From: Planctomycetota bacterium
Lineage (GTDB): Bacteria; Planctomycetota; Phycisphaerae; Phycisphaerales; UBA1924
Length of the DNA stretch: 64,000 nt
Direction of reading: 5' to 3'
NCBI GenBank assembly: GCA_018242625.1
Contig: JAFEBO010000008.1
Span: forward strand, 496,001-560,000
Position 1 is the stretch's first letter; every line of letters begins with the position of its first letter. A program made the translations under genes and the position numbers. Positions 16,671 through 62,235 of this stretch are shown here, one piece after another. The notes below the pieces were generated by a model that worked only from the letters and a program-made list of their open reading frames with translations, made no database searches and was not told the DNA's origin.

Positions 16671-17006
16671 TGGTCTTCCTTCGTGCTTCGATGCCCGGCC
16701 CGGAAATTCGGGTCCGATGGCGGGACTGGATCTTGGTCTCCGGTCTTGCGTTGGACCGGGGAACAGCTTGAATTGAACTTGAACGGGATCGGGTTGCCTC
16801 GCGGCCGTTTGCTAGGCGGTGCGAGTGGGGAGGCGAGGGGTAGTCATCACCCCGCGATGTCTTCATCCTCTTCCATCTGGAATCACCCGATCGATCGGGA
16901 AAGAAACGTCCCGGAGAGCCCGGCCATTCCTGCCCTTTTTGCGAGCGGAATAATAGACGGGCGATCGGGCGAATCAAGCCTGCAGCGAGGTTCTGTCAGC
17001 GACCTG
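16671..17006 (-). promoter_or_regulatory. fusA: Upstream (leader) region of fusA
   Basis: 336 bp without a credible gene. It should hold the fusA promoter and leader. A small hairpin (CCGGTC 16740-16745 with GACCGG 16754-16759) could form in the leader. I see no clear -35/-10 pair, riboswitch or ribosomal-protein operator in it. Confidence 0.35.
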
Positions 17007-44047: not shown

Positions 44048-44201
44048 GGCTAAATCAGCGAACTCATATGGCGGCAATCGCTTATGACACACCGGCAAGC
44101 GGGGGCTTGCTACTGTTCACGGGGACTTGGTATCGGCCGTTTGGGCGCATGGACGCCCGAATCGAATGGGCCGGCACGGAAGCTTGACTGGACGGCGCAC
44201 A

Positions 44202-46301: not shown

Positions 46302-46334
46302 ACGCAGTTGCTCCGGCTTTGCTAAAGTGCCCGC

Positions 46335-47207: not shown

Positions 47208-47292
47208 CCGTCACGATGAAAATCCGAGTGATTGCCCGCCGGCCGCCGGGGCCCGGCTTGGAAATCTTTTTGAAAAAAGGTCAAGGGGAGCC

Positions 47293-47321
47293 TTGACGGT
47301 CTACGACAAACGTAGTAACTT
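47293..47321 (+). promoter_or_regulatory. Likely promoter of the blaI-like operon
   Basis: A TTGACG at 47293-47298 is followed after 17 bp by TAACTT (47316-47321). The -35 is strong, the -10 matches weakly. The operators described next overlap it, as for blaI promoters. Confidence 0.5.
47302..47317. promoter_or_regulatory. BlaI-type operator 1
   Basis: TACGACAAACGTAGTA is a near-perfect BlaI/MecI box (consensus TACGACA.nTGTAGTA). It lies between the -35 and -10 elements of the promoter for the repressor gene at 47379. It is the first of two copies, which argues for autoregulation by the BlaI-like protein. Confidence 0.85.
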
Positions 47322-47323
47322 CC

Positions 47324-47339
47324 TACGACATCGGTAGTA
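47324..47339. promoter_or_regulatory. BlaI-type operator 2
   Basis: TACGACATCGGTAGTA, a second BlaI/MecI-type box, lies 22 bp downstream of the first, about two helix turns, so two dimers could bind on one face. It covers the expected transcription start. Confidence 0.85.
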
Positions 47340-47378
47340 GAAGGGCGGCGATCGGTCGCGAGCTTCGGAGAGGCGTGT

Positions 47379-47780
47379 ATGGCAAAGAAGCCCATAGAAC
47401 TAGGAGAGGCCGAACTGGCGGTCATGCGGGCCCTCTGGGATCACGGGGCCCAGACCGTCCGCGAGGTCATGAACAGGCTTCACGAGCGGGGCAAAAACGT
47501 CGCGTACACCACCGTGCTGACTTTTCTGACGCGGCTGGAGCAAAAAGGGGTTGTCGCGAGCGACAAGCGGGATCAGGCATATGTGTACAAAGCCCGGATT
47601 TCCCGCCAGAGCGTGACCATCTCGCGCATCAGGTCGCTCGTCGACCAGTTGTACGACGGCGCCGCCGCTCCGATGCTGGCCCAGCTCATCGAGAATGAAC
47701 GCTTCACCCCGGACGAGATCTCCCAGTTGCGAAAGCTGATTGACGACCTGGACCCCAAACACCCGTCGAAGGGGGAGTAA
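47379..47780 (+). CDS. BlaI/MecI/CopY-family transcriptional repressor
   Basis: 133 residues. It has the winged-helix DNA-binding half (ELGEAELAVMRALWDHGAQT, VAYTTVLTFLTRLEQKGVV) followed by YVYKARISRQSV and a C-terminal dimerisation helix pair. These repressors are cleaved by a partner BlaR1-type metalloprotease when the signal is sensed. The next gene, 6 bp later, is exactly that partner. Two palindromic operators lie just upstream at 47302-47339. It probably controls its own operon and may reach the TPR-ExbB-ExbD genes beyond. The inducer is not evident; no beta-lactamase gene is close by. Confidence 0.93.
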   Translation: MAKKPIELGEAELAVMRALWDHGAQTVREVMNRLHERGKNVAYTTVLTFLTRLEQKGVVASDKRDQAYVYKARISRQSVTISRIRSLVDQLYDGAAAPMLAQLIENERFTPDEISQLRKLIDDLDPKHPSKGE

Positions 47781-47786
47781 CCCGAC

Positions 47787-50651
47787 ATGGATGCGGTTTC
47801 TCAAACGCTGCAGGCGCTCTGGATAGGCGGGCTGGCTGCAACCCCGCTCGTGCTTGTCATCGGGCTGGTGTGCAGGGTCCGGATGCTCAGGCCCTCCACC
47901 CGTCACTTGCTCTGGTGTGCCGCTCTGGCCTCGCTCGCGGCGCCGGCGCTGGGGTGGTGGCTTTGGCGTCCGGACTGGTTCCGGTCTGAATCGGTGCTGG
48001 CCGCCGCAGACCGGGCGCTTGGACGCGCCGGGCCTTCGGCCTCAGGAAATGTCGCAGCGGACGTCGGCCCCAGGATGGCGTACGTGGGCCCGCTCCTGCT
48101 GCCGATGGCAGCCAGCCCGGTCAACCTGCACGATCGGGCGGCTGTCCCGACTCTGCTCCCAAGCACGGGCCCGAACGCTGAAGCCCGAAGGCTTGCGTAC
48201 GAACTCCCTTTGCCTCTGCCGGCGACCTATGCGGACGCAAAGTCCGGAGCAGGCGGGACTCCCATGGCGGCCTTGGGAAATCCGGGAGCCGATCGGGGGC
48301 GGGCGGGCGGCTTACTCGCAGGCGGTGTTTCGGGTCGGATTCGGGAACCGGTCATGGCTGCGGTCGGAAGGCACGAATCTCCGAAGGTGCTTGCGCCCGC
48401 GGAGCCGGCGCAACAGGGCTTGAAGACAGAATCCTTGCCGGCGAAGACTGAGACTGCCGACGCTTTCCTAACTGTCGGTGCTGTCGGGCAGTTCCTTCGC
48501 GGGATGGTCGGGAGCCTCGTCGGGTTACGGGACTGGCTGGCGGCCCTTCCTCCACTGCCCGCCGCGATCTGGCTGGGCGGGACCCTATTGCTGGTGGGAG
48601 CAAGCCTTGTACGTACGGTCCTTGCAGCCAGAGCGTTGCGCGATGCGCACCCGGCGGGCAGGGAGATCAAGGTGATGGTGGTGCGAACGAGCCGGTGGGT
48701 GGGGCTGCGTCGCCCGCCGGAGACATTTGTGGTTCATCGCGCCATATCGCCTCTGATCTGGTGCGGGCTCAAAGCAAAGCTTGTTCTGCCTAGGGAACTC
48801 TGGGATTCATTGGATGATGAGTCGAGGCGTGCGGTGCTTGTGCACGAGCTTGCGCACCTCAAGAGGCTGGATCATGTCTGGTGCTGGATCGAGATGCTGA
48901 TCGGTGCCTTGTACTGGTGGCATCCGCTCGCGTGGTGGGCCCGTTTACGCCTTCGGGATGAGGCGGAAGCGAGCTGCGACGCGTGGGTAACGAGCACCCT
49001 GCCCAACAGCAGGCGTGCGTACGCGACCGCCCTGGTCGCGACCAAGTCGTTCGTGAGTATGCGTGGATGGGGAGCTCAACCTTCGCTGGGAATCATGTCC
49101 GGATCGGCCACGAAGATGGCCAGGAGAATCACGATGGTGATGACGCAAAAGCCCGCACCCAAGATGTCGTTTGCAGGCGCCTGTATGGCCGCTTCGGTGG
49201 TCGTCCTCGGCGCGTTTGTCATGCCGGGCGTGGCTTGCCCGCCCGAAGAAGCGTCCGCGAACAAGGCGGCCAAGGCCGAGATGGTCAAGGCAAAGGCGGC
49301 CAAAAACCGCAGCACGCCGGAGGCCGAGTTTCTGGGGGAGGCGCCCGCGCTCGAGGCGATGAAGCGGAACGGCGTGGTTGTCGTGCCGGCCACTCCCTCG
49401 GCCGCGGGAGTACCCGCTGCGCCCGTGGCTCCGGTGGCGCCGGTGGCTCCCAGGGTGCGTGTGAACATCAGCGGTGATGGTCAGTGCGACGCGTCGCGGG
49501 CACATGTCCTGAGCGCGGAGGATGCCAAGGCCGGCAAGGTTGCCCGGGTTTACCGGCTTCCCAAAGGCAAGCTCGATGCTTTCTGGGGCCTGATGAGCAG
49601 GAGCGACGTGCCGGTCTTTGTAGAACGCCGGAGTGGCGACCTGATCGTGATCTACGCTCGCGAGCAGGATCATCCCTCGATCGGTGCGTTCATTACGATC
49701 ATCAATCCCGGCGGCAGCGGTGGTCAAACCCCCGTCGCGGTGCAGGGAAGAGCGGCGGCCAGGGGAGGGTCTGTCACGCCTTCGCTCAATGCTTACCGAA
49801 ATTCGCTGCGAGCGCTCGAAGCCGAGCAAGCGGCCCTTGAGCGTAACGCAGAGCGGATGCGGACGTCGGCCGAGACGCTGCAGTCGCACCATGAGCAACT
49901 CGAGGAGGCAACCCAGCGGCTCAAGGAGCAGGCCGCGGAATTGAAAGAGCAGCAGGCCAAGCGCCTGGTCGAAGGTGCCGCGGCACAAATGAAGGCCCGC
50001 AGCGATGAGGCCCGAGTCCGCGGCAGGGGAGCGGAAAACCAGATCCGTCAGATCGAGCGGCAGATTGAGCAGATCGAGCGTCGCGCCGATGAACTCCGCG
50101 AGAAGATCTCTCAGGCGGAAGACAGTGATGATTCCGAGGGCGCTCTTGCCATGCTCGAGGAGCAGGGTGAAGCGGTCGAGATCGACGCGGACGGGCCTGC
50201 GCAGGTCATCCTGGAAATGGAGCCGGAAGAAGTGATTGGCGCTCCCGAGGGCGACGAAGAGTTCGTCGGCGCTCCGGACACCGGCGACGATGCGATGGCT
50301 GAACCCGACGAAGTGGGCGAAGAGATGGGTGCGACCGACGAGGATCTCGAATCCCCCATGATGAAAGGGCAGTCCGCGGGCGAGCCCAACGACGACGATG
50401 CGGATGATGAAGAGGAAGAGGCCGCGGCACCCGGCACCCCGGTGCCGGCTGTTCCGCCCGCCCCGGCATCCACGGCCCCGGCTCCCGCACCCGTTGCGAC
50501 GCCGACCCCCGCCTCGCCGGCCGCCGCACCAAGCCCGGCCCCGGCTGCGGCCCCGGCTGCTTCTCCGACGCCCGCGGCGGCACCCGCCCCGGCACCTGCT
50601 CCCACACCAACTCCGGCGACTTCGGTGGCGCACGTGAGCCGCACCGCCTGA
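47787..50651 (+). CDS. BlaR1/MecR1-type M56 membrane metalloprotease with coiled-coil sensor region
   Basis: 954 residues. The M56 core has membrane helices near 11-30, 38-58, 257-280 and 461-482, and the zinc motif in RAVLVHELAHLKRLDHVW (His353, Glu354, His357). DEAEASCDAW (with Glu394) gives the probable third ligand. The last helix is followed by a periplasmic half that is not a penicillin-binding (transpeptidase-like) domain. It holds a beta-like segment, then a long charged coiled coil (about 660-770; EQAAELKEQQAKRLVEGAAA) and a very acidic section (about 790-870). The end is a Pro/Ala/Thr low-complexity tail. It likely senses something other than beta-lactam and cleaves the BlaI-type repressor. 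Translated 6 bp after it. Confidence 0.88.
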   Translation: MDAVSQTLQALWIGGLAATPLVLVIGLVCRVRMLRPSTRHLLWCAALASLAAPALGWWLWRPDWFRSESVLAAADRALGRAGPSASGNVAADVGPRMAYVGPLLLPMAASPVNLHDRAAVPTLLPSTGPNAEARRLAYELPLPLPATYADAKSGAGGTPMAALGNPGADRGRAGGLLAGGVSGRIREPVMAAVGRHESPKVLAPAEPAQQGLKTESLPAKTETADAFLTVGAVGQFLRGMVGSLVGLRDWLAALPPLPAAIWLGGTLLLVGASLVRTVLAARALRDAHPAGREIKVMVVRTSRWVGLRRPPETFVVHRAISPLIWCGLKAKLVLPRELWDSLDDESRRAVLVHELAHLKRLDHVWCWIEMLIGALYWWHPLAWWARLRLRDEAEASCDAWVTSTLPNSRRAYATALVATKSFVSMRGWGAQPSLGIMSGSATKMARRITMVMTQKPAPKMSFAGACMAASVVVLGAFVMPGVACPPEEASANKAAKAEMVKAKAAKNRSTPEAEFLGEAPALEAMKRNGVVVVPATPSAAGVPAAPVAPVAPVAPRVRVNISGDGQCDASRAHVLSAEDAKAGKVARVYRLPKGKLDAFWGLMSRSDVPVFVERRSGDLIVIYAREQDHPSIGAFITIINPGGSGGQTPVAVQGRAAARGGSVTPSLNAYRNSLRALEAEQAALERNAERMRTSAETLQSHHEQLEEATQRLKEQAAELKEQQAKRLVEGAAAQMKARSDEARVRGRGAENQIRQIERQIEQIERRADELREKISQAEDSDDSEGALAMLEEQGEAVEIDADGPAQVILEMEPEEVIGAPEGDEEFVGAPDTGDDAMAEPDEVGEEMGATDEDLESPMMKGQSAGEPNDDDADDEEEEAAAPGTPVPAVPPAPASTAPAPAPVATPTPASPAAAPSPAPAAAPAASPTPAAAPAPAPAPTPTPATSVAHVSRTA

Positions 50652-50830
50652 ATCGTTCGAAGCCCTGCTTTGCTGAGCGCAGCTGAGAGCCCCCGTTCTT
50701 GACGGGGGACAGAGTGTCCACGCAACAACCGGAGCGGGGTCGGAAGATCCAGCTCCGGATTCAGAGATTGCCTGATTGCTGGAGAACGGAATTCAAGTTC
50801 CGGCGCGATCGGTGCGCCCGGGAGGCGGCT

Positions 50831-53800
50831 ATGGCTTTCAATCAAACGGTCTGGATTCTTGGACTGCAGTTGGCCTTGTTGACAGGATCCGCTTCGCTGG
50901 CCGGGCCGGTGGAAGAGAAGTCATACCGGGCCGGGATTGGCCTTGCAAACAAGGGGCTGAACGAGCTGGCGGCAGAAGAGCTGCGATCGTTCCTGAAGGC
51001 CGCTCCCGAATCGCCCCACGCGGTCAGCGCCCGGTACACACTCGCGGTTTGCCTTGTGCGGCTCGGAAAACACGAGGAGGCCGCGAAAGAACTCGATCGG
51101 GTTGTCGGAGTTGAAGGATTCGAGTTCGCCGGTGATGCGCTCTTTCTTCGAGCTCAATGCTCCGCTACTCTCGGCGATGATGCTGGTGCCGAGGCCGCGC
51201 TCAAGCGGCTCCTGCACGATCAGCCGGCCTTCAGCCAGGCGGACAGGGCCGTCGTGCTCTACGGCGAGGTTTTGTACCGCCAGGGAAAATATGGACCGGC
51301 CAAGACCCTTCTCTCCCCGTTTGGGCGCAAGTGGCCCCAAAGTCCGGACCGCGACAGGGCCGAATTGTTTCTGGCTCTGTGCGAATTGGGTGCGGGCGAA
51401 GCTCAGGCAAGCGGGCGCCGGTTTGAGGGACTCCTCGCCGGAGCGCCCCAGGGCCCATACGCCGGTCACGCGGCGCTCGGTGCGGCCGATTGCCAGCAGC
51501 GGTTGCAGAATCCAGAGGGCGCGGCCAAGTTTTACGAACTCGCAATCGCTCGCGGTGACGCAAAGGTCAAGGCCGACGCGACGCTTGCCTTGGCGCGACT
51601 TGAACGATCGCGCGGGAACGGCGAAAAAGCCGCGAAGCTTCTGGCAGACGCCGCATCGTTCACGCAGGGTGAGATGGAGCGGGGAGAAGTCGAGCTGGAG
51701 CGGGGCAAACTACTTTACGACTCGGGCAAGATCGGCGATGCCGAGAGCGTCTTCCAGCCTCTGGCAGGGAGAGTTGCAGGAGCCGAGTTGTGGCTTGCAC
51801 GGTGCGCCTCCAGGGCGGGCAGGTATGACCAGGCGATCGTGCAGCTCGATGCGTTAACCCTGGCAGGCGGGCCCCAATTCTCCGATGCTCTGTACGAACG
51901 GGCGGTTGTACTGGTGCAGGCCGGTCGTGACAAAGAGGCGGCCGGAGCCTTTGAACTGTGGGAGCAGCGGTTCCCGTCCGGGGCAATGCGAGCAGATGCG
52001 GTGGCCGCCCGTGCGGCGTGTCTCTACCGGCTTCAGCAGTACGCAGAGAGCAAAGAACTGTGCGAGCGGTTCCTAGGTGAGTATTCGGGGCACGAGCGTG
52101 CGGCGTCGGTGCGTCTGCTGCTTGCAGAGAATCTGTTTCTTTCCGGCGCCTACAGCGACGCTCAGTCGGCCTTTGCCGCGTTCGTAAAGGAATATCCGCA
52201 GGACCCCGGTGTGTGGCGGGCCCGGGTGCGCCGCGGGCTTTGCCTGATCAAACTGGATCGGGGGGAAGCGGGAAAGAAACTGCTGAACAAGGCGCTCGTC
52301 GAAGGTGGACAGGCGCTCGAGCCCGGACTCCGCCGGGTGGCCGCGATGACCCTGGCCGACAGCGCGATCAATGAAAGGGATTGGGCAACTGGAGAAAAGC
52401 TGCTGAGGCCGTTCGTCCCGGAAAGCGGAAACGATGGCGATCTGCTTCTGCGCTACGGAATCTGCCTGGCGAGGCAAGGCAAGAACGCGGAGGCGATTGC
52501 CGCTCTTGATCGGGCCTGTGCCGCCGGGGGGAGCGTGCTGATGCGGTCCAGACTTGAGCGTGGCCAGGCGCTCGCCGCCGCGGGGCGTACGCGGGAAGCG
52601 AGAGAGGATCTGGAAGCGGTGGTGGGTGCGGAGGCCAAATCGGAGTTGGGCGTGCAGGCCCGCCGTAGCCTGGCTTCGATTGCTTCGAGCGAAGGCAGAG
52701 TTTCTGAAGCGGCCGGACTTCTTGCCGATGCGGCGGATTCGGGGGTGCCCGGCGCGCAGGAAATACTTCTCGAGCAGGTCGCGGCGTGGCTGGGCGCGGG
52801 TGAGTTTGCAAAGGCGGAGGCCGGTGCCACGCGCTATCTGGAGGCCGGCGGCAAACAGGTTGCGGAAGCAAAGGTCCGGCGTGCCATCGCGATCAATCGG
52901 CAGGGCCGATCGGATGAAGCGATCCGTCAGCTGGAATCGGTCGCGGGTGAGACGGGGGGTATGGCTGCGGAGTTGGCCGCGGCCGCCCGTTACGAGCTCG
53001 CGTATGCACTGCGGCTTTCGGGCCAGACCAGCCGTGCCGTTGCCGCGTACGAATCGATGCTTCGCGAAAACAGCGGATCCGAACTGGAGGCGCACGCCGG
53101 TCTCGAACTCGCGCAGATCAGGATGGCTGAGGGTGATTTCGAGAGGGCGATCGGCCTTCTCGATCGGGCGAAGCAAGTCGCGAGCCGCATGCCCGAGCGT
53201 GCCGCTGGTCCGGTCAATGAGCGCGAGTTGTATCTTCGCGGATCGTGCCTGTTCCGGATGGGGCGGATGAAGGAATCGGCGGGCGTGCTCGATGAATTTG
53301 TATCTCGGTTTCCGCAGAGCGGGATGCTCTCGAGCGCGCTTGTTTTGCAGGGCGATATCCGGCTTGCCAACGGGAACGCGGCCGAGGCTTCGAGATGCTT
53401 CGAGCGAGTGCTTGCCGGCCAGGCCGGGGCGGATGTCGTGGCGATCGCGCTCTTAAAGCTCGGAGATGCAAAGGCCGCCCTTAAAGACTGGCAGGGCGCG
53501 GAGAAGGCGTACTCCGACTATCTCGCTGCGAACAGCACTTCAGAATTCTGGTTCCAGGCGTCGTTCGGGCTCGGATGGGCGCTCGAGAATCAGGCGAAGT
53601 ATGACGATGCGCTGAAGTGCTACGCCGATGTCGTGGCCCGGCACGAGGGTGTCACCGCCGCCCGGTCGCAGTTTCAGATCGGCGAGTGTTTGTACGCACG
53701 GAAAAAGCTGCCCGAAGCGCTCGCGGCCTTTGCGAAGGTGGACGTTCTGTACGCGTATCCGGAGTGGAGCGCGGCGGCTATCTACGAATCGAGCAGGTGC

Positions 53801-53971
53801 CTTGATGAGCTCGGCAAAGCCGGCGAGGCGGAAGCGCAGCGACAGGACCTCTTGAAGCGATTCCCCGACTCGGCGTGGGCACGGATGGCCGGGGAGCAGC
53901 GGGCGGCACCGCGTCCGACGCTAGGGAGTGCGGACCGGCTTCCGGAAGGCAATCACGGCGGGCGGGAGTGA
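50831..53971 (+). CDS. Large exported TPR-repeat protein
   Basis: 1046 residues, starting at an ATG after gggaggcggct, with signal peptide (NQTVWILGLQLALLTGSASLAG). The mature protein is helical repeats nearly end to end, with TPR/Sel1-like units (LAVCLVRLGKHEEAAKELDR, FLRAQCSATLGDDAGAEAAL, SRCLDELGKAGEAEAQRQDLL). It resembles a much enlarged CpoB/YbgF, the periplasmic TPR partner of the Tol system. Gene order with ExbB, ExbD and a PD40 protein downstream (25 bp, 3 bp and 10 bp gaps) supports that role. No catalytic residues. It starts 179 bp after the BlaR1-like gene, so a second promoter may exist. Confidence 0.85.
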   Translation: MAFNQTVWILGLQLALLTGSASLAGPVEEKSYRAGIGLANKGLNELAAEELRSFLKAAPESPHAVSARYTLAVCLVRLGKHEEAAKELDRVVGVEGFEFAGDALFLRAQCSATLGDDAGAEAALKRLLHDQPAFSQADRAVVLYGEVLYRQGKYGPAKTLLSPFGRKWPQSPDRDRAELFLALCELGAGEAQASGRRFEGLLAGAPQGPYAGHAALGAADCQQRLQNPEGAAKFYELAIARGDAKVKADATLALARLERSRGNGEKAAKLLADAASFTQGEMERGEVELERGKLLYDSGKIGDAESVFQPLAGRVAGAELWLARCASRAGRYDQAIVQLDALTLAGGPQFSDALYERAVVLVQAGRDKEAAGAFELWEQRFPSGAMRADAVAARAACLYRLQQYAESKELCERFLGEYSGHERAASVRLLLAENLFLSGAYSDAQSAFAAFVKEYPQDPGVWRARVRRGLCLIKLDRGEAGKKLLNKALVEGGQALEPGLRRVAAMTLADSAINERDWATGEKLLRPFVPESGNDGDLLLRYGICLARQGKNAEAIAALDRACAAGGSVLMRSRLERGQALAAAGRTREAREDLEAVVGAEAKSELGVQARRSLASIASSEGRVSEAAGLLADAADSGVPGAQEILLEQVAAWLGAGEFAKAEAGATRYLEAGGKQVAEAKVRRAIAINRQGRSDEAIRQLESVAGETGGMAAELAAAARYELAYALRLSGQTSRAVAAYESMLRENSGSELEAHAGLELAQIRMAEGDFERAIGLLDRAKQVASRMPERAAGPVNERELYLRGSCLFRMGRMKESAGVLDEFVSRFPQSGMLSSALVLQGDIRLANGNAAEASRCFERVLAGQAGADVVAIALLKLGDAKAALKDWQGAEKAYSDYLAANSTSEFWFQASFGLGWALENQAKYDDALKCYADVVARHEGVTAARSQFQIGECLYARKKLPEALAAFAKVDVLYAYPEWSAAAIYESSRCLDELGKAGEAEAQRQDLLKRFPDSAWARMAGEQRAAPRPTLGSADRLPEGNHGGRE

Positions 53972-53996
53972 AGAGTAATTCCACCAGGAGCAGCCA

Positions 53997-54716
53997 ATGA
54001 ACTTGATGAGCGAGAGTTTTGCAGTATTGGGTCAGCAGACGCAGCCGGGTCTCGTTTCGACCGTGCTTGAGATGGTTCTCAAGGGCGGCTGGAGCATGGT
54101 GCCTCTTGGCGTTTGCTCGCTTGTAGCGCTTGCGCTGGTGGTCGAAAGATGGATACTGACCCGGCCGGGACGCATCGCGCCGCCCCCATTCATGGCTTCG
54201 ATCGCGGCGCTCCGGGCGAGTCCGTCGCGGCTGCTTGCGGCATGTGATGCGGACAAGAGCCCTGTGGCGTGCGTCATCGCCGAAGGAGTGCGGGCACGCG
54301 ACGGGTCCCCGGACGAGATCGAAAAGAGGCTGGCGGAGGCGGGGCAACGTCAGGTACTGAAGCTGCGCCATCGAATGAGGCTGATTTCGGTGCTGCCCCA
54401 GGTCGCCACCATGCTGGGGCTGCTGGGAACGGTGGTCGGGATGATCCGCACGTTTACGGTCGTTGCCGCCTCCGCGGAATCGCTGGGAAAAACCGAGAAG
54501 CTCGCGCAGGGCATCTATGAGGCCTGGACCGCGACGGCCGCCGGATTGATCATCGCGATTCCGACTCTGCTTGCGTACCACATCCTGATGGGCAGGATCG
54601 ACGCTGCGGCGGCGGCTTTGGACGCGGCGGCGACGCAGTGGCTGCGACCGAGCGGCGTTGAAGCGCCTTCGACCCGAGAAAGTGTTGAGGGCGAGCTCGC
54701 GCTTGCGGAGGGATAA
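53997..54716 (+). CDS. MotA/TolQ/ExbB proton-channel protein
   Basis: 239 residues with three membrane helices (about 31-51, 129-155 and 172-197), the ExbB/TolQ pattern. The core sequence VLPQVATMLGLLGTVVGMI and IYEAWTATAAGLIIAIPTLL is the MotA_ExbB signature. With the next gene it makes the proton-driven motor. The large cytoplasmic loop (about 60-125) between helix 1 and 2 has the expected charge. The first 25 residues before helix 1 are probably periplasmic. Starts 25 bp after the TPR gene. Confidence 0.93.
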   Translation: MNLMSESFAVLGQQTQPGLVSTVLEMVLKGGWSMVPLGVCSLVALALVVERWILTRPGRIAPPPFMASIAALRASPSRLLAACDADKSPVACVIAEGVRARDGSPDEIEKRLAEAGQRQVLKLRHRMRLISVLPQVATMLGLLGTVVGMIRTFTVVAASAESLGKTEKLAQGIYEAWTATAAGLIIAIPTLLAYHILMGRIDAAAAALDAAATQWLRPSGVEAPSTRESVEGELALAEG

Positions 54717-54719
54717 ATC

Positions 54720-55133
54720 ATGCTCATCCGGAATGCCGAAGCTCGGGATGATTCCCACATCGACTTTGTACCGATGGTCGATGTGCTTTTCAACCTGCTC
54801 ATCTTTTTCCTGATCGCGACCAGCATGGCTCAGACCGAGCGGGAAATGCGCATCGCGTTGCCGCATGCGGCGGCGTCCGGCCCGATCTCGATAGCGATGC
54901 GGGAGATCATCATCAACGTCGATTCGGAAGGGAAGGCGATAGTGGGGGGAAAAGTGATGGATGCCGGGGTACTTGCCGAGACGCTCCGCAGCGCGGTCGC
55001 GGCAAATCCCTCGCAGAAGGTGAGCGTTCGCGGGGACCGCACGACGGCGTATGCAAATGTCGCCCGAGTGCTGGATGTGTGCAAGGGCGCGGGCGTACAG
55101 CAGCCATATCTCGAAACTGTGCCTCTTCGTTGA
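54720..55133 (+). CDS. ExbD/TolR biopolymer-transport protein
   Basis: 137 residues. One membrane helix (about 17-36, FVPMVDVLFNLLIFFLIA) has the catalytic Asp21, at the place of the proton-carrying Asp of ExbD/TolR. The periplasmic domain has KVSVRGDRTTAYANVARVLDVCKGAG, the family's conserved end. It starts 3 bp after the ExbB gene, so both should be made in step. It is the stator partner that transfers force to a periplasmic effector. Which effector is discussed under the next gene. Confidence 0.93.
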   Translation: MLIRNAEARDDSHIDFVPMVDVLFNLLIFFLIATSMAQTEREMRIALPHAAASGPISIAMREIIINVDSEGKAIVGGKVMDAGVLAETLRSAVAANPSQKVSVRGDRTTAYANVARVLDVCKGAGVQQPYLETVPLR

Positions 55134-55143
55134 GGAGGGTGGG

Positions 55144-58100
55144 ATGACGCGGATGGTTCTCAAGCCCGGCGGTAAGGTGGCGGTCACGATCGCGCTCATT
55201 CTGTGCGCCGTGATCACAACGGCCCTTGTGTTCTGGCTGCCGTGGTCCCGTTCGTGGTGGACGGATGGGCGGTCGATCCGGGTTCGAACCAGCGAGATCA
55301 TCCCGCGGCGGATCCTCTGGCAGCCGGCCGTTCCGGTGCGTCCGCAAGCGGGAGCCGAGGAATACGAACCGCGGTTGAGCACCGATGGAACGATGATGCT
55401 GCTGGTGCGGGGCCGAGCCGGGGGTAACGCGGATCTCTACGAATCCGTGCTGTCGAACGGAGCGTGGACCGAGCCTCGCGGGATCGATGAGATCAACACA
55501 AACTCCGACGAACTCGGACCAGAGCTTTCTTCGGATGGAAAAACGCTCTATTTCTACTCCGACAGGCCGGGCGGGCTTGGCGGGTATGACATCTGGATGT
55601 CGAAGCGGGAGGGTGAGAAGTGGGGCACTCCCGTTAATCCCGGCGCGGCGGTGAATAGCCCGGCCAATGAATACGGCCCGGCGGCAGCACCGGATGGTCA
55701 GACGCTCTACTTCGCCTCCAACCGATCGAGGCCCGGCGAAACCGAAGATCGTGGCGTGGAATGGGCCGCGACCCTGCGGGAACGCCGGCACCGGCACGAT
55801 TACGACCTCTACGCCGCGGAGATCCGCGGCCAGGAGATTCTGCCGGCGCGCGCTGTCGCGGAACTCAACACGCCGTTTGACGAGGGTGCCCCCGCATTGA
55901 GCGCAGCGGGTGACTTTGTGTACTTTGCTTCGGATCGACCCGGGGGCTTCGGCGGGTTGGATGTGTACCGCGCGAGGCTGCGCGCCGGAAAGTTCGATGC
56001 TCCGGAAAATCTCGGGCGGGCGGTAAACTCCGATCGGAACGACTTGGACCCGGCGCTGAGCCTGGACGGTTTTCGGCTGTATTTCAGTTCGGATCGCGCG
56101 AGCACTCCGGAGGCACGCGTCTTTGCACTCTGGCAATGCGGCTCACGCGAGGTGTTCGAAGATGTGGAGCGCGTGTCGCACGCCGGGGCGGCACGGGAAC
56201 TCTGGGACAGATTGTGGCCGTGGCTCATCGCGCTGCTGATCGGGCTCGCTTCGGCGGCGCTGCTCTGGCGACTCTGGACCGACGAATTGTGGCGGCGACG
56301 CCTCGGGAGACTCAGCCTCCTGGCTCAGTGTCTTCTCATTTCCATGCTCGTGCACGGTCTGATCGTGTCGGGCCTGGCGGTCTGGAAGGTCGGGAGCGGC
56401 ATCGCGGATGTTCTGAAAGATCCCGGCGGCACGCAGGTGATACTGAGTTCCGCCGGGGCGGGCGGTGAATTGGTTTCCCAGCTTGAAAGCACCGGCAGCG
56501 GGATAGCCGTGCCAGCCCTTTTGGCAACCACATCGGTGCCGGAACTTCCACCGATCCAAACGACATCGACCGCGAGTTCGGTCGATGCGCCGCTGCCCGC
56601 GGCGAATCTGGACGTCACCCCGGCCGTCCAGTTGCCAAGCAGCTCCCGACAGGACGAGCTGACGAATGTTCGTGTCGTTCGGCCTGAATCGGCGCTTCCA
56701 ACGCAAGCCGCGCTGCCTCAGATCGCCCGTGAAGACAGGGCTGAGAGCAAGTTCTCGGTGCAACCGGGGACCACGCCTCATATTGAAGCCGCTCCGGTAG
56801 TGGTTGAGTTGCGTGCACCCGCGTCGAATCTGGATGCTCCGGCGACGTCGACCGGTGCCGCGCCGATGGAGATTCAGCCCGGGCGATCGGCCGCGCGGGA
56901 GTCTGAACCGGCTCGTCGTGCGAGCCTCGAAGTGCGTGCCGTAGGTGGTGAGCGGCTCCCAGCCAGTTCTCCGGCTGCTGTCTCGAATCCGGAGGAGTCT
57001 GCCAGAGTCGACTTGAGCAAGCTGCCTTCGAGCGGTCCGGGGCTTGCGATGACTGAGACCAAGTCTGCCGCGCCGACCGAGTTGGGCCTGCCGCCGGTCG
57101 GAACAGGTGCTGCCGCTTTGGCGCGAAATGAATCCTCGGACCTTTCGCCTCGAATGGATGGACGTCTTGAGGTGCCGAATGAGGCCGCCCGACCGCTTTC
57201 CAAGGCGCTTCAAGAATTGCCACCCACGACAGCGGACGGAGCGGCCACATCGCTCCCCCAACTCACGCCTGGTTCGCAAGCAAATCCGGAGAAGCGTCTC
57301 TCCGCCGCCGATACCGCAGTGCCCGGCTTCTCAGGGGTGGCTCTGGAAACCGTGGGGCGAGTGCGTTCAAACGATGGAAATCTGAAGGCCGGTCTCGAAG
57401 GCGCGAAAAGCACCGAGCAGGCGGCCCTGATGGCCTTTAAGCCCGGCTCGGCACCGGAAGCACGCAGCGCCGCCTCGGGAAGCGCGGCGGTCGCCGCCGC
57501 GCCCCTCGGGATCCAAACGGGCGGGTCCGAAATCCGCATCCCCGCGACTCCGATCGAACCGGTCGAGTCGTTCGCGCAGCGGGCGCCGGAAGTCCGCTCG
57601 GAAACGCTGGAAAAAATGGGAGGGAACGCTCAGACGGAGCGTGCGGTCGGTCGGGCGCTCGAGTGGTTTGCGCGGCACCAGTCCGCGGATGGGAAGTGGT
57701 CGGGCGAATCCTTCGACGATGGCTGCGGTCGCTGCGGAGCGGCGGCCGAGATACATGCGGATGCGGCGCTCACAGGCCTGGTCCTGCTCTGCTATCTGGG
57801 ATCCGGGCACACGCATCAACTCGAGGGGCCGTACAAGGAACGCGTGCAGAAGGGGCTTGAATGGCTGATCGCGAGGCAGAGTGCCAACGGTGATCTGCGA
57901 CGCGGGGAGACGATGTACGGCCAGACGATTGCCGCCGTCGCTCTGTGCGAGGCTTTGGCAATGACGCGAGATCCAGCTCTTGCTGACCCCGCGCGCCTCG
58001 CCGTGCAGTTCGTGCTGCAGACCGCGGCCAAGCCGCGCGATCGCCGAGCGGCCGATGAAGATACTTCGGTGCTTGGGTGGCTCGTCATGACCGTGGAAAG

Positions 58101-58572
58101 CGCTCGCCGCGCCGGCATCGCCGTCCCCCGCGATGTGTTCGCAGCCGCGGACCGTTTCCTGGATTCGGTGGAGACGAACGGCAGATATGCGTACGCACGG
58201 GGTGCGGCACCCAGCCCGGAAATGACCGCGGAAGCGCTCTTTGTGCGGCAGATTGTCGGGCACGAGCGGAGCGAACCCCGGATGTCTGCCTCGGCCGAAT
58301 TCGTTCTCGCCACAAAGCCCAGGTGGGAGAACGGAGCTCCGACCTATCACTGGTATTACGCGACTCTCTCGCTCTTCCAGCAGCAGGGCCAGTCATGGAA
58401 TGCCTGGAACGAAGCGCTGATGCCGCAACTGGTTGGCCATCAGAGGACCGATGGTCCCGCAGCGGGAAGCTGGGATCCGCAGGACGAATGGTCGCGGCTG
58501 GGAGGGCGTGTGTATCAGACCGCCATATGCACGCTGAGCCTGGAGGTTTACTACCGCTACAAACCGCGGTGA
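55144..58572 (+). CDS. Giant membrane protein: PD40 (TolB-like) domain, paired helices, long linker, terpene-cyclase-like toroid
   Basis: 1142 residues. Helix 1 (about 9-31) anchors the N-terminus. Residues about 70-345 are PD40/TolB-like propeller repeats (ELGPELSSDGKTLYFYSDRP, EYGPAAAPDGQTLYFASNRS, EGAPALSAAGDFVYFASDRP). Helices 2 (about 358-378) and 3 (about 391-412) are joined by a short basic cytoplasmic loop (DELWRRRLGR). By the positive-inside rule the PD40 domain and everything after helix 3 are periplasmic. A roughly 400-residue Ala/Pro/Ser/Glu linker leads to an alpha/alpha toroid (about 824-1142) like prenyltransferase/squalene-hopene-cyclase repeats (LEWFARHQSADGKWSGESF, YGQTIAAVALCEALAMT). 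The DxDD acid motif of hopene cyclases is not seen, so it is probably a binding domain. Encoded 10 bp after ExbD. Role in force transduction is inferred. Confidence 0.8.
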   Translation: MTRMVLKPGGKVAVTIALILCAVITTALVFWLPWSRSWWTDGRSIRVRTSEIIPRRILWQPAVPVRPQAGAEEYEPRLSTDGTMMLLVRGRAGGNADLYESVLSNGAWTEPRGIDEINTNSDELGPELSSDGKTLYFYSDRPGGLGGYDIWMSKREGEKWGTPVNPGAAVNSPANEYGPAAAPDGQTLYFASNRSRPGETEDRGVEWAATLRERRHRHDYDLYAAEIRGQEILPARAVAELNTPFDEGAPALSAAGDFVYFASDRPGGFGGLDVYRARLRAGKFDAPENLGRAVNSDRNDLDPALSLDGFRLYFSSDRASTPEARVFALWQCGSREVFEDVERVSHAGAARELWDRLWPWLIALLIGLASAALLWRLWTDELWRRRLGRLSLLAQCLLISMLVHGLIVSGLAVWKVGSGIADVLKDPGGTQVILSSAGAGGELVSQLESTGSGIAVPALLATTSVPELPPIQTTSTASSVDAPLPAANLDVTPAVQLPSSSRQDELTNVRVVRPESALPTQAALPQIAREDRAESKFSVQPGTTPHIEAAPVVVELRAPASNLDAPATSTGAAPMEIQPGRSAARESEPARRASLEVRAVGGERLPASSPAAVSNPEESARVDLSKLPSSGPGLAMTETKSAAPTELGLPPVGTGAAALARNESSDLSPRMDGRLEVPNEAARPLSKALQELPPTTADGAATSLPQLTPGSQANPEKRLSAADTAVPGFSGVALETVGRVRSNDGNLKAGLEGAKSTEQAALMAFKPGSAPEARSAASGSAAVAAAPLGIQTGGSEIRIPATPIEPVESFAQRAPEVRSETLEKMGGNAQTERAVGRALEWFARHQSADGKWSGESFDDGCGRCGAAAEIHADAALTGLVLLCYLGSGHTHQLEGPYKERVQKGLEWLIARQSANGDLRRGETMYGQTIAAVALCEALAMTRDPALADPARLAVQFVLQTAAKPRDRRAADEDTSVLGWLVMTVESARRAGIAVPRDVFAAADRFLDSVETNGRYAYARGAAPSPEMTAEALFVRQIVGHERSEPRMSASAEFVLATKPRWENGAPTYHWYYATLSLFQQQGQSWNAWNEALMPQLVGHQRTDGPAAGSWDPQDEWSRLGGRVYQTAICTLSLEVYYRYKPR

Positions 58573-58596
58573 AATCGATGCCGGTACAGTTGCGGG

Positions 58597-58812
58597 ATGT
58601 CACTGCTCAAGCGCCGGGCCGCCGCCCGAAAGTACAGGCCCGCGAAGATCCGGCTGCTGCTGGTGCCCTTGTGCCCCCCAGATCGCCAGGCGAAGCCAAA
58701 CGGGTGGGCGGGTGGGATAGTCCAATGGCACGATCCTGGCGGCGCGTACGCAGCCGGAGCGGGGTCAAAAACGGTTCGGGATGGGCGGCGGGGAACTTCG
58801 GCTCATCGGTAG
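58597..58812 (+). pseudogene. Remnant of a gene starting like a UDG-like family
   Basis: The first 23 residues (MSLLKRRAAARKYRPAKIRL followed by LLV) have the look of the start of a family of uracil-DNA-glycosylase-like proteins (KRxxRKYRPxxIRVLLVxExPP). After the Val the family sequence should continue with a Gly/Glu-Ser-Pro-Pro motif, but here the reading becomes unrelated (PLCPPDRQAKPNGWAGG). I take it as a 5' fragment joined to foreign sequence at about base 58665. It could also be a chance match, as the region is short. Confidence 0.25.
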
Positions 58813-58866
58813 AGCGTCGGGGTCACCTAAGGCCACAGCAAGCGAAGAACGGGGATTTGGAGCGCG

Positions 58867-58901
58867 AACAAGGCCGAACAGCAGTTGTTCGGCCTTGTTT
58901 T
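58867..58901 (+). terminator. Strong rho-independent terminator without an obvious gene before it
   Basis: A perfect 14-bp stem (AACAAGGCCGAACA 58867-58880 with TGTTCGGCCTTGTT 58886-58899), five-base loop, and a T run (TTTTCT) directly after. It is about 300 bp past the PD40/toroid gene, so it could end that operon, or a small RNA made from 58600-58860. Confidence 0.8.
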
Positions 58902-59383
58902 CTGTAGCAAAGACGCCCCGCCGAAAGGCGGTGCGTCCGTGGGAAGATTTGAAACTGATTAGCCCGCAAGTCAGCGAATCGCTGCCCGAGGAGCCTTTTC
59001 TGACAATCCTCACGAGCTACGAAGGCCACCAGACCCTAACAACAACGCCACAAAGTTGTGGAAGCCCCTTCATCGAAAAGCGGGTTCTGCAGACCACGGC
59101 AAAAGAAAGCCGTCTGTAGCCTATTTGAATGGTGCCGGCGAGCCCGTCGGGTCAGGGGTGGCTCATTTCAGTGCGCAGGAAAGCAATGATCTGCAGCCTA
59201 ACAGCCCGCTAAATGGCCAAAGTTTATGTTCGCTCTTGTATTTACCTGCCGCGGTGAGGACAATGGATTCCTCACGCGTGTTTCCAAAGAGAAAGCAACG
59301 CGTCTTGGAATCGCGGAATGTCCGGGCCCGGTCGGGCTCAATGCCTTTGGAACCGCGAGCATTTGGCTAAAGAGAGGGTGGAG

Positions 59384-60142
59384 ATGAGAACTATTTCTTC
59401 GATAGGCGTGGCGGTGATTGCGCTCACAAGCGTCCAAGCGAGCGCGGCGTTTCTCGGTACGGCGCAGAGCTTTGGCGTCCTCGCCGGCTCGACAGTAACC
59501 AACACCGGGCTCACCTCCGTCAGCGGCAACGTCGGTGTTTGGCCCGGAACCGCGATCACGGGGTTCCCGCCGGGCGTCGTCACCAATGGCACCTTCCACG
59601 CGAGCGATGCGGTCGCTCAGACTGCTCAAGCTGATGCGCTCAGCGCGTTCAACGCGCTTGCATCCATGGCGCCAACAACGGTGCTTACCGGTACCGATCT
59701 AGGTGGGCTGACTCTCACCCCCGGGGTTTACTTCTTCGCCAGTTCCGCTTTTCTCACCGGCACGCTGCGGCTTGACGCGCAGGGCAACCCAAACGCGCTC
59801 TTTGTATTCCAGATGGGCTCCACGCTCATTTCTGCGAGCAATTCGTCGGTTCTCACCATCAACGCCGCCGATGACTGCAATGTGTATTGGCAGGTCGGCA
59901 GCTCCGCGACCTTGGGAACCGATTCGGCATTCCAAGGCAACATCCTCGCCAACGCCAGTATCACAATGAATACTCGGGCATCTCTCATCGGTGGCCGCGC
60001 CCTGGCTCTCAATGGGGCTGTGACACTCGACTCCAACATCATCGAAGCGGGATGCCTCGACATCCCCGCCCCCGGTGGAATTGCCGCGGGCTTCATGGCC
60101 TTGGCAGTAACGGGGTTCGGCGGGCGCCGGCGAAGGGCCTGA
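59384..60142 (+). CDS. Exported ice-binding-like (DUF3494) protein with PEP-CTERM-like tail
   Basis: 252 residues with a signal peptide (SSIGVAVIALTSVQASA). The body is the DUF3494 beta-solenoid: FGVLAGSTVTNTGLTSVSGN, VGVWPGTAITGFPPG, LGGLTLTPGVYFFASSAFLTG, NALFVFQMGSTL, CNVYWQVGSSATLGTDSAF and GRALALNGAVTLDSNII are all family marks. Characterised members bind ice; many others from non-polar bacteria act in adhesion. The C-terminus IPAPGGIAAGFMALAVTGFG then GRRRRA is a PEP-CTERM-like anchor, so the protein should be held at the envelope. The ATG at 59384 follows a strong ribosome site. Confidence 0.9.
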   Translation: MRTISSIGVAVIALTSVQASAAFLGTAQSFGVLAGSTVTNTGLTSVSGNVGVWPGTAITGFPPGVVTNGTFHASDAVAQTAQADALSAFNALASMAPTTVLTGTDLGGLTLTPGVYFFASSAFLTGTLRLDAQGNPNALFVFQMGSTLISASNSSVLTINAADDCNVYWQVGSSATLGTDSAFQGNILANASITMNTRASLIGGRALALNGAVTLDSNIIEAGCLDIPAPGGIAAGFMALAVTGFGGRRRRA

Positions 60143-60169
60143 TTGGACACCATGGGGAAGGCCGCGGTC

Positions 60170-60199
60170 AAAAAGAAGACCCCGTCTCGCGACGGGGTC
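60170..60199 (-). terminator. Terminator of the methyltransferase fragment
   Basis: A 9-bp stem (GACCCCGTC 60178-60186 with GACGGGGTC 60191-60199) around TCGC. The A-rich run 60170-60177 gives T residues on the minus strand. It lies 18 bp past the stop at 60218. Confidence 0.7.
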
Positions 60200-60217
60200 C
60201 AGATTGCGAAGTGTGGA

Positions 60218-60541
60218 CTAAGCGAGTTGCGGTGACTTGCCAGCCGGTGGTTTGGGAGCAGCGCTTTGGGCCCTTGGCCTGCGACGATCGACTGATTCGT
60301 GTTTTACAGTCGGCATCTTCGCCCCTTGCAATCGCTGCGGTGGAGCTGCAACGCGCTTTCGGGCAGTGGCGGCATGGTCTCCGTCTTTTTCAATGAGGAT
60401 GAAACGACGGCCGGCATCTCGAGCCGCAAGTGCCGTCGTGCCGGACCCGGCGAACGGGTCCAAGACGATGCCCCCCGGCGGGCAGTAAGCTTCGATCAGG
60501 GGCGTCAGGCTCTCAACCGGCTTTTGCGTCGGATGGCGCAC
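60218..60541 (-). pseudogene. C-terminal fragment of a DNA methyltransferase
   Basis: 107 codons, with GTG at 60541 as the first possible start and a TAA stop two codons before it. RHPTQKPVESLTPLIEAYCP then GGIVLDPFAGSGTTALAARD is the C-terminal motif of beta-class N4-cytosine/N6-adenine DNA methyltransferases: the HPTQKP region and the SAM motif DPFAGSGTT. The catalytic (D/S)PP(Y/W) motif, which in this class lies before these, is missing, together with about 200 residues. The remaining piece cannot methylate DNA. The end is Pro/Arg-rich. It still has a stop and terminator, so the loss is at the 5' end, right where an FN3 fragment begins. Confidence 0.7.
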
Positions 60542-60633
60542 AACTTACGTATCGCGCTAGGGCCAAACAGGCGGGCAAAGGACTCAAAGTGCGTTCCAAA
60601 TACGGGAATTACAGCAACTCCGTGGCGATCTAA
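60541..60633 (+). pseudogene. C-terminal remnant of a fibronectin type III-like protein
   Basis: In one frame the sequence reads LTYRARAKQAGKGLKVRSK then YGNYSNSVAI and stop. YRxRAxxxG ... YSNSV is the last-strand pattern of FN3 domains (compare TYRVRAxNxxGxSxYSNxV). Upstream of base 60541 the frame enters the opposite-strand methyltransferase, so only about 30 residues remain. It abuts that fragment almost exactly, which suggests a recombination joint. Confidence is limited by the length. Confidence 0.35.
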
Positions 60634-60700
60634 ATCGATTTTACATACTTGCGTCGCGGATCGGAACGATCCGAGCGCTATGTGGAAATTCCTGAAAAAC

Positions 60701-60724
60701 GTCGGTTCGAACCTGACTCTGCGG
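60701..60724 (+). other. tRNA 3'-end-like segment (possible attachment-site relic)
   Basis: GTCGG TTCGAAC CTGAC forms a TpsiC-arm-like hairpin with the invariant loop TTCGAAC (60706-60712), followed by seven bases (TCTGCGG) where the 3' acceptor strand would be. No D arm or anticodon arm precedes it, so it is not a tRNA gene. Integrating elements that use tRNA 3' ends leave such fragments. It is about 140 bp from tRNA-Ser(GCU) but does not match its 3' end, so the link is weak. Confidence 0.3.
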
Positions 60725-60859
60725 GATCGTCGGCTTCAGTGGGCTCCTCGCGGGGCGTGGAAACTGCTTGTGGATGAAGAGGTTCCAGAGCGGGTCGAGA
60801 TCGGGGCGGAAACCCTGAGCGCAAAAGAAAAGCCCGAAACCCGGGCTGATCGAATCAAA

Positions 60860-60950
60860 CGGAGAGGGGGGGATTCGAACCCCCGATACAGACCTAAATC
60901 CGTATAACGGTTTAGCAAACCGCCGCCTTCAGCCTCTCGGCCACCTCTCC
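60860..60950 (-). tRNA. tRNA-Ser (anticodon GCU)
   Basis: On the minus strand, acceptor GGAGAGG pairs with CCTCTCC, the D arm is GCCGAGAGGCTGAAGGC, and the anticodon loop TTGCTAA shows GCT. A long class II variable arm and the T arm CGGGGGTTCGAATCCCCC complete it. Discriminator G at 60860; CCA is not encoded. The size (91 nt) and long arm are typical for serine tRNA. Confidence 0.95.
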
Positions 60951-61023
60951 GGCGTGGGGCAAGGATAGCAGCTTCCAAGGGCAGTCAACGGCCGGTGGGG
61001 GAGCAGGCGACCGGCCCGCGACC

Positions 61024-61076
61024 AAAAAAAACCGATGGCCCCGGCGCGGCGGAGTCATCAGCGCGCGGGGCCATCG
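61024..61076 (-). terminator. Terminator of the coiled-coil gene at 61119
   Basis: CGATGGCCCC (61033-61042) pairs with GGGGCCATCG (61067-61076), extended inside by GCGCG/CGCGC. The A run at 61024-61031 is the T tract on the minus strand. It lies 43 bp past the gene's stop. Confidence 0.75.
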
Positions 61077-61118
61077 CTTTGGGGGGGCATCTGAAATTCA
61101 GGGGGGAGGCGGCAGCGT

Positions 61119-61397
61119 TCAGTCGGAGCCTTCGGGCTCGGCGCTGCGCTTTTCCAGCAGGCTGCGTAAATAGTCATTCTCCCGACGCGTCGCCTCGAGA
61201 TCGAACACGAGGTACTTGACGCTCAGGCGCAGATAGTCCAGCGACTCCTGAAGGTCGCCGATGGTCTGACGCATCTTGTCGTGGCGGGCGGCGGCTTCGC
61301 CGGCAAGGGCTTCAAGAGGGGCGCGATCCGTCTCGGGAAGCTCGCTGATCTGCGCCATGAGTTCGCCGAGCTTCTTCTGGAAGTCCTGTTCGTTCAT
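61119..61397 (-). CDS. Small coiled-coil protein, conserved-looking, function unknown
   Basis: 92 residues behind a ggagagag site. It is almost wholly alpha-helical: MNEQDFQKKLGELMAQISEL, then LPETDRAPLEALAGEAAARH, then LQESLDYLRLSVKYLVFDLE, then ATRRENDYLRSLLEKRSAEP. The repeated pattern (LxxSLDYLRLSxKYLxFDLEATRRE) is one I recall from planctomycete proteins of unassigned role. It may be a small regulator or adaptor. It has its own terminator downstream. No DNA-binding motif is visible. Confidence 0.7.
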   Translation of the reverse strand: MNEQDFQKKLGELMAQISELPETDRAPLEALAGEAAARHDKMRQTIGDLQESLDYLRLSVKYLVFDLEATRRENDYLRSLLEKRSAEPEGSD

Positions 61398-61602
61398 GTC
61401 TCTCTCTCCATTAGTCAGACGGGCTGTTGGCCGGTCTGCTGGAAAGAGATGCAAAGCCTTTGCCGGAAGCACCCGTGCATCGTGCCAATCGCGCCGGTCT
61501 CAGAAAAACCGCGTACCAACGGCTCCAGAAGGCCCGATCGCGTTCTCGGTCTGCCGGGGGCCGCGCGGGCGGCGGACGGGGTGTGCGGGATGTTGCGTCG
61601 GC

Positions 61603-62235
61603 TCAACGGTTGATGTCGATCCGACGCACAGCAGCCTGTGCTTCGGCGCCGGACTGGGCGAGGACCTGGGCAAATGCAGCCGGATCCTGCTTCTTCAGTT
61701 CCTTCAGCGTCTTCCTGGCATGGTTGTCAAGGTTCTGTCTGAACCGTTGGAAAAGCGTTTCCAGTTCGTGCCGGTTGTAACGGCTGAGCGGGTCGCGCAT
61801 GCCCGATTGCATCACGGCCCAGTCCAGGAGCGATGCCCCTGTCGCCGTGAACTTGTACAGGGCGAGGGTCGCGGCAGCCCTTTTGGCGAGTGTCGTGAAG
61901 GGGTCGGAGGCCTGGTCGGGAATCCGGAGGAAAGTCTCATCCGTGGCCGCCTTGGCTTCCCGGTCGAGGATCGTGTTGTTGGAGGACATCGTGTCGCTTC
62001 CGTGCAGGGGAGAAGGGGAAGAAAAAGTGTCTGTCGCTTCGAGAATCGATGCAAAGGCTGTCGAAATCGTCTTGGAGCCCGCCTTGTCAAACCGGATCGT
62101 CAGCCGCTGGCAGCGAACACCCTCGTGCTGCACAGAAACCGCCGCCGTCACAACGCCGACTCCCCACTGGGGACAGCCCGCGTGACGCACTTTGCTGCCG
62201 ACGGTCCATTCGCGGACAAGCTGGGGCATTTCCAT
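61603..62235 (-). CDS. DUF3553-containing protein
   Basis: 210 residues. The N-terminal 60 (WTVGSKVRHAGCPQWGVGVV, then RCQRLTIRFDKAGSKTISTA) is the DUF3553 domain. This small beta-barrel (KxGDRVRHPxxPEWGxGxV) is like the C-terminal RNA-polymerase or DNA-binding barrel often attached to UvrD-like helicases. The rest is a helical region (residues about 100-210) without recognised homology, ending in a coiled coil (ETLFQRFRQNLDNHARKTLKELKK). The start at 62235 (MEMPQLVREW) or the next Met is set by the domain. Possibly involved in DNA transactions. Not near a helicase here. Confidence 0.75.
   Translation of the reverse strand: MEMPQLVREWTVGSKVRHAGCPQWGVGVVTAAVSVQHEGVRCQRLTIRFDKAGSKTISTAFASILEATDTFSSPSPLHGSDTMSSNNTILDREAKAATDETFLRIPDQASDPFTTLAKRAAATLALYKFTATGASLLDWAVMQSGMRDPLSRYNRHELETLFQRFRQNLDNHARKTLKELKKQDPAAFAQVLAQSGAEAQAAVRRIDINR

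Follow-up and report, generated by a model that had tools for sequence, protein, structure and literature searches.

Organisation of the tRNA-Ser(GCU) locus

The window, i.e., the whole 64,000-nucleotide stretch of Planctomycetota DNA analysed here, carries a tRNA-Ser(GCU) gene on the minus strand at 60859–60951, detected by ARAGORN and by Rfam (RF00005, 58.1 bits). The gene is intact, as a preliminary description made from the letters had stated, and is the putative insertion target. Next to it, at 60647–60858 on the plus strand, lies a decayed remnant of a large serine recombinase gene, comprising its C-terminal end; it was identified by tblastn and by DNA match, and its frame continues into the tRNA gene in antisense. 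In the tblastn search, positions 60644–60847 aligned to residues 447–514 of the 515-residue recombinase of the same-genus genome G001 with 46% identity (E 4.6e-14) and free of stops, and the DNA match to genome G003 begins at 60647 (83%). The gene end reads VGSNLTLRDRRLQWAPRGAWKLL and is followed by the tRNA gene in antisense. The window remnant contains no Resolvase, Recombinase or zinc-ribbon domain; only the C-terminal end remains.

Several short sites were placed in and beside this remnant. The C-site, a T-arm look-alike reading GGTTCGAAC, occupies the codons G-S-N of the recombinase code at 60704–60712 (plus strand) and was assigned from its position and a family-wide codon test. The T-arm of the tRNA gene, TTCGAAC in antisense, lies at 60874–60880 (plus strand), in frame with the C-site and 168 nt from it. 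The likely attachment core CGGAGA, formed by the last bases of the tRNA gene in antisense (60860–60865, no strand), was placed by comparison with inverted-repeat ends in relatives and not from the window itself. A candidate terminator-like hairpin with a T-run was seen by eye at 60823–60848 (minus strand), 3′ of the tRNA and within the recombinase code. The preliminary description had read 60701–60724 as a tRNA 3′-like fragment. The T-arm likeness is real, but the stretch belongs to a serine recombinase gene that a relative carries at full length; a tRNA fragment was rejected, as the sequence sits in an open recombinase frame and varies by codon in relatives.

Methyltransferase fragment and left flank

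A 107-codon frame at 60218–60541 (minus strand) encodes the C-terminal end of an N6/N4 DNA methylase. Because its match to PF01555 (N6_N4_Mtase, E 1.1e-20) covers only positions 161–219 of 221, the N-terminal catalytic part is absent, in agreement with the preliminary description. The genome search proposed there did not recover the missing half: the six other matches in the window's own genome are paralogues of 35–53% identity. A second DNA copy of 60150–60860 was likewise sought in this genome and none was found.

The methylase fragment had also been taken as the sign of an integrated element. The truncated fragment is genuine and may be cargo of an element. Phage DNA methylases resemble it (at best 59% across 64 residues), which could suggest an ordinary phage or restriction island marked by the methyltransferase and separate from the recombinase remnant. 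We consider this very unlikely: the resemblance is unspecific, because 1465 phage records match the same common motif region, and the sequence that touches the tRNA is recombinase code, found at full length at the same tRNA in G001.

Between the methylase fragment and the remnant is a joint of unassigned origin (60542–60646, no strand) without a family match, containing the supposed FN3 piece. The FN3 end described as abutting the methylase at 60541 was not substantiated, since at E ≤ 1 the stretch 60541–60633 matched neither a Pfam family nor any of the seven other same-genus genomes. The A/T-richer composition that had been noticed here is present and mild: G+C is 57.6% in 60500–60999, lower still in 59000–59499 (55.8%) and 60–68% in the remaining 500-base windows of 44000–62000.

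Further left are an ice-binding-like gene (59387–60142; PF11999, E 4.5e-63) and a PD40/squalene-cyclase-like gene (55051–58572). The PD40 gene, which is left of tRNA-Ser(GCU) in the window, is found near tRNA-Ser(GGA) in G003 (6 kb) and G007 (12 kb) and 52 kb from tRNA-Ser(GGA) in G002. These positions hint at exchange between serine-tRNA sites. The left flank of the window is itself rearranged, with the PD40 operon near tRNA-Ser(GGA) in G003 and G007; farther left, the genes follow the order found left of tRNA-Ser(GCU) in these two genomes.

The window's own genome contains another island, DISARM-like, at tRNA-Ser(GGA) (locus L086, G000:C4:181000-200900, positions 9792–19899). This island has its own serine recombinase, 26% identical to the recombinase family described below, and a 4.2-kb part of it is 89% identical to G002. 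Its products include a DrmD-like helicase (E 1.8e-199), and a type IIG/DrmMI-like methylase gene extends beyond the stretch.

The same locus in related genomes

In a DNA search of 40 relatives, the stretch left of the tRNA was found at 83% identity in G003, 86% in G002 and 79% in G001. The adjoining gene is tRNA-Ser(GGA) in G003 and tRNA-Ser(GCU) in G002 and G001. In all three, translation in the recombinase frame shows this stretch to be a gene end. This conservation of the recombinase–tRNA stretch in three same-genus genomes bears on the suspicion that the joint is an assembly error or chance and is absent from the organism. The genome is in 12 contigs and 92% complete, and truncated frames meet within 100 bases. 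An artefact nevertheless appears extremely improbable, given the 79–86% conservation and the far-left gene order shared with G007 and G003.

The G001 recombinase is full length: a 533-codon frame, encoding the Resolvase, Recombinase and zinc-ribbon domains, runs into the same tRNA-Ser(GCU) and ends there. The G002 recombinase gene at this tRNA is broken into two pieces that lie on opposite strands, the N-terminal piece containing a stop. The split is caused by an inverted pair of IS copies (1290 bases, 99%; L029 7301–8590 and 13187–14476), with the segment between them inverted. Directly 3′ of the same tRNA, G007, G003-C228, G009 and G017 have different sequence by inspection and gave no recombinase match. 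The contigs of G004, G005 and G006 start at tRNA-Ser(GCU) or within about 85 nt of it. On the right side, gene order up to tRNA-Ser(CGA) is kept in all six same-genus tRNA-Ser(GCU) loci compared. The 3′ side of tRNA-Ser(GCU) is therefore a variable spot.

The mobile-element scar proposed in the preliminary description is thereby borne out, by the recombinase remnant and not mainly for the reasons given at the time. The comparison with relatives recommended there proved informative: the recombinase, full length at this place in G001 and IS-split in G002, is the element itself, and the reading as a scar stands. The two other matches to the G001 recombinase in the window's own genome are only 26% identical, and an intact close copy is therefore lacking there.

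A recombinase family at tRNA 3′ ends

Scanning genome contigs with a four-sequence alignment returned 63 loci, of which the best 36 (33–100% identity, including the G001 query itself, L102, and alignment row L110) were examined. Record titles assign them to Phycisphaerales, Elusimicrobia, Patescibacteria groups, Omnitrophica, Verrucomicrobia and others. In 29 of the 36, ARAGORN called a tRNA or tmRNA no more than 400 nt from the match end, and the orientation is convergent in 29/29. The targets are 16 tRNA-Ser, four Gly, two Asp and two Glu genes, and one each of Gln, Arg, Val, Tyr and tmRNA. The final codons of the recombinase adjoin the tRNA, and the frame extends past the tRNA end in 28/29 loci (the L128 value being doubtful). 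Among the remaining seven, the contigs of L111, L112, L125 and L130 end within 91 nt, L104 and L124 are doubtful by eye, and L126 has no target. L104 looked by eye like an ssrA site, and was left out of the count as Rfam found no tmRNA there; L124, which by eye adjoins a broken tRNA-Val, was also left out. Six of the 27 weaker loci of the same scan likewise face a tRNA or tmRNA.

G002 carries copies of the recombinase, intact or broken, at tRNA-Ser(GCU), tRNA-Ala(UGC), tRNA-Ala(CGC) and tmRNA. The three domains of the G001 protein are also present in the G002-Ala and L131 proteins. Among 72,556 plasmid and 50,697 phage records, the best match was below 60% identity, at about 30% among the matches listed, and viral contigs yielded only 10 distant relatives (≤35%). 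More distant serine recombinases (26–39% identity) that face a tRNA 3′ end lying within 300 nt were observed at L147, L148, L150, L152, L154 and L156, which record titles assign to Alphaproteobacteria, Rickettsia, Elusimicrobiales, Saccharibacteria and Peregrinibacteria.

T-arm look-alikes in the recombinase gene

The recombinase code contains two TCGAA sites in different frames, the E-site (LEP-like) and the C-site (GSN), and the pair could be placed in 28 of the 36 loci. The serine codon of the C-site is TCG in all 24 loci with Ser, against 3.9 expected from each gene's codon use (P 2.5e-20), and the E-site reads TCGAA in 22/28 loci, against 4.8 expected (P 3.6e-13); these P values treat related genes as independent, which they are not. 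The spacing from E-site to C-site is 101 nt in 22/22 loci with both sites. The codon choice indicates that the T-arm look-alikes are kept beyond the need of the protein.

Most distances from the C-site to the tRNA T-arm belong to four classes (105, 138, 147 and 168 nt); in L128 the value is 375 nt. The distance is a multiple of three in 26 of the 30 loci measured, the window remnant (168) included and L127 giving no value. By inspection, two of the four non-multiples (L102, L137) are slips of the search pattern by one base; L110 and L123 stand as exceptions. We infer from these sites that the recombinase may read the T-arm sequence GTTCGAAC shared by tRNA genes. Recognition of this common sequence would account for a single family inserting at Ser, Ala, Gly, Gln, Arg, Asp, Glu, Val, Tyr and tmRNA genes.

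Inverted copy, native tail and outer arm

Upstream of the recombinase gene, an inverted copy of its 3′ coding end, running through the last bases of the tRNA, was found in 23 of the 36 loci. Twenty-one copies are at least 78 nt long; those of L124 (24 nt) and L130 (40 nt) are weak. Of the 13 loci without a copy, eight have contigs that begin within 280 nt of the match and two have contigs that end within 8 nt of it. The outer end of the repeat lies 4–9 nt inside the tRNA in all 16 listed loci with a called tRNA (6 nt in 11), these being blastn ends that may extend by chance. The E-site and a whole C-site are missing from most inverted copies. By eye, the inner edge of the upstream repeat carries, e.g., in L108, L109, L119, L131 and L133, a short perfect palindrome whose sequence differs from locus to locus. 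Between the upstream repeat and the recombinase of the G002 element is a small gene (L169 5711–6163) with a weak MarR_2 match (E 9e-4, under the curated cut-off); a related gene start, with a recombinase-end fragment behind it, is present in G007 at L039.

The recombinase frame extends past the inverted copy as a native tail, which has the motif (V/I)R(T/N).F in 9 of the 18 loci displayed, e.g., WSCLYDEVRTHFKASGG, WLRLLNEIRTFFEENPDSDF and WWALLDIVRTLFDENPVV. Variants are EVITYF in L120 and ARTI in L104 and L169. In this set contig ends truncate L106 and L118, and in L111 a tRNA occupies that place.

The outer arm (O arm) is shared by L131 and L132 (89% over 179 nt), which come from different genomes and adjoin different tRNA-Gly genes; it therefore belongs to the element. 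As the O arm is element-borne, the inverted copy is an intact attP, and insertion would swap the native tail for antisense codons of the tRNA. TCGAA occurs near the core in 6 of the 17 O arms displayed, and several others carry by eye a variant such as GTTCGGAC; neither was visible by eye in the O arms of L119 and L120.

L111 (1184–1424 and 5353–5504) is the only flipped case. Its tRNA-Ser(GCU) lies at the upstream repeat, the recombinase points away, and the contig ends at the other repeat. The recombinase module might accordingly be an invertible switch between the tRNA and the O arm, the enzyme inverting its own gene, locked with the tRNA tail and active with the native one. On both sides the inverted repeats stop at one common core, two alternative in-frame tails exist, and L111 supplies the flipped arrangement. 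However, the recombinase end adjoins the tRNA in 29 loci and only one is flipped, so that flipping must be rare or unseen in assemblies, and most inverted copies are without the E-site and whole C-site. This last feature may account for the orientation bias. A switch of this kind is conceivable and, in our judgement, improbable.

Element boundaries, empty site and cargo

A search with the genome's own O arm found the second O copy (attL) in three of the four genomes searched. It is inverted, at a distance of 31 kb in G002 (98% over 181 nt) and 22 kb in G145 (97%); the G140 copy is divided between two contig ends. More O-like copies were found in G002 at 1598 and 3592 kb. Both attachment arms are doubled and inverted in these three genomes (in G140 across a contig gap), which hold integrated forms with the layout flank-core-[O cargo O′]-core-[IR′ recombinase IR]-core-tRNA, so that the doubled arms part the recombinase module from the cargo. 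Because each arm is doubled and inverted, an intact inverted attP remains upstream of the recombinase. Our first model, a 2-kb IS-like unit bounded by short inverted repeats, was abandoned since the O arm is element-borne and attL lies 31 kb away.

The doubling also bears on whether the inverted copy is a functionless relic, left by gene conversion or by an adjacent element in tail-to-tail arrangement. The Phycisphaerales copies differ in their inner part by small insertions, and some loci have no copy, as a relic would allow. Against this, the same layout, in which the copy stops close to the C-site and at the core, recurs in Planctomycetota, Elusimicrobiota, Patescibacteria and Omnitrophota, and O and IR are both doubled in three genomes. 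We think a relic unlikely.

The G002 insertion spans approximately 811.89 to 845.90 kb, i.e., 34 kb. The chromosomal flank beyond its attL is present in 7/7 other same-genus genomes. In four of these (G006, G004, G007 and the window genome), tRNA-Ala(UGC) follows the matched flank after 21–176 nt with no insertion, representing the empty site. AATGGAG, the core formed by the last bases of the tRNA, is common to the four empty sites and to attL, attR and the inverted attP of G002. In G140, type I restriction-modification genes lie between the inverted attP and the contig end.

Two further inverted repeat pairs were observed in G145:C15 (L229–L231): 596271–596889/610114–610732 (619 bases, 96%) and 614190–614637/630423–630870 (448 bases, 99.6%). 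Both flank 13–16 kb, share 119–146 bases with the outer O arm and have no tRNA nearby.

Proposed mechanism

Judged from sequence comparison, the window very probably represents the attR of a decayed integrative element whose recombinase joins an attachment site in the 3′ end of its own gene to the 3′ end of a tRNA gene. The large serine recombinase would recombine these two sites, and upon insertion the antisense codons of the tRNA would take the place of the native tail. Insertion by attP × attB recombination is a well-supported proposal, given the attachment sites and the empty sites. Because the attachment arms are doubled, the free form would be a circle with two inverted attP copies. The window would show the end state, in which the recombinase gene was cut at about 60647, the rest was lost, and the tRNA-side end alone survived.

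Several observations count against this reading. No inverted partner or O arm was found in the window, where a single junction survives. L110, L122 and L126 have room for an inverted copy and contain none. The native tail motif is absent from L102 (the G001 gene), L103 and L119. The L104 genome, searched with its own arm, yielded no second O copy, and no tRNA-Ala was found beside the G002 attL flank in the stretches compared from G001, G003 and G005.

If the proposed reading is true, one family uses many tRNA genes by reading a common sequence, copies of which it carries in its own gene. Mobile islands in the mostly uncultured Patescibacteria, Elusimicrobiota, Omnitrophota and Planctomycetota could then be sought by a pair of TCGAA sites, spaced by 101 nt, in front of a tRNA end. 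A type I restriction-modification system is encoded on one island of this kind. A compact T-arm-directed integrase could also interest genome engineers.

Comparison with known systems

In the open literature (titles and abstract starts), we found no published account of the mirror-image layout; an earlier description is possible, as subscription papers and preprints were mostly outside this search. Large serine integrases are known from phages and ICEs, e.g., elements of the phiC31 and A118 type. The present family shares with them the Resolvase, Recombinase and zinc-ribbon domains and the attP × attB scheme with a short shared core, represented by attL and attR in G002. Unlike these elements, it targets many tRNA and tmRNA 3′ ends, its attP overlaps the recombinase 3′ end, it keeps a second, inverted attP, and its gene contains T-arm look-alikes.

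Tyrosine-integrase islands insert at tRNA 3′ ends and leave the tRNA intact, and in some the integrase gene is altered on insertion. The present elements likewise insert at the tRNA 3′ end with the tRNA intact and the recombinase gene end changed, but they have a serine recombinase and doubled inverted arms. Casposons, which are defined by Cas1, have terminal inverted repeats and in some cases lie at tRNA genes. The present elements also have terminal inverted repeats; these are attachment arms, one of which overlaps the recombinase gene.

The yeast 2-micron plasmid is described in PMC6594588 as having a recombinase gene and two inverted target sites that divide it into two unique parts. Two inverted recombination sites separating two unique regions were also found here, in G002, G140 and G145. 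The yeast system is a free plasmid with head-to-head FRT sites, whereas only integrated bacterial forms were seen in this study. A cycle of inversion as in the 2-micron plasmid, suggested by this analogy, is doubtful for the present elements. Equally tentative is the wider idea of a widespread bacterial 2-micron counterpart exploiting the T-arm, in which a circle with two inverted att sites, the recombinase gene ending within one of them, would be amplified by inversion in the course of replication and could enter any tRNA 3′ end, and the tail swap would act as an on/off lock. The 2-micron recombinase Flp is of the tyrosine type; because the present enzymes have serine recombinase domains, the family at most works like the 2-micron plasmid and is not a member of that group.
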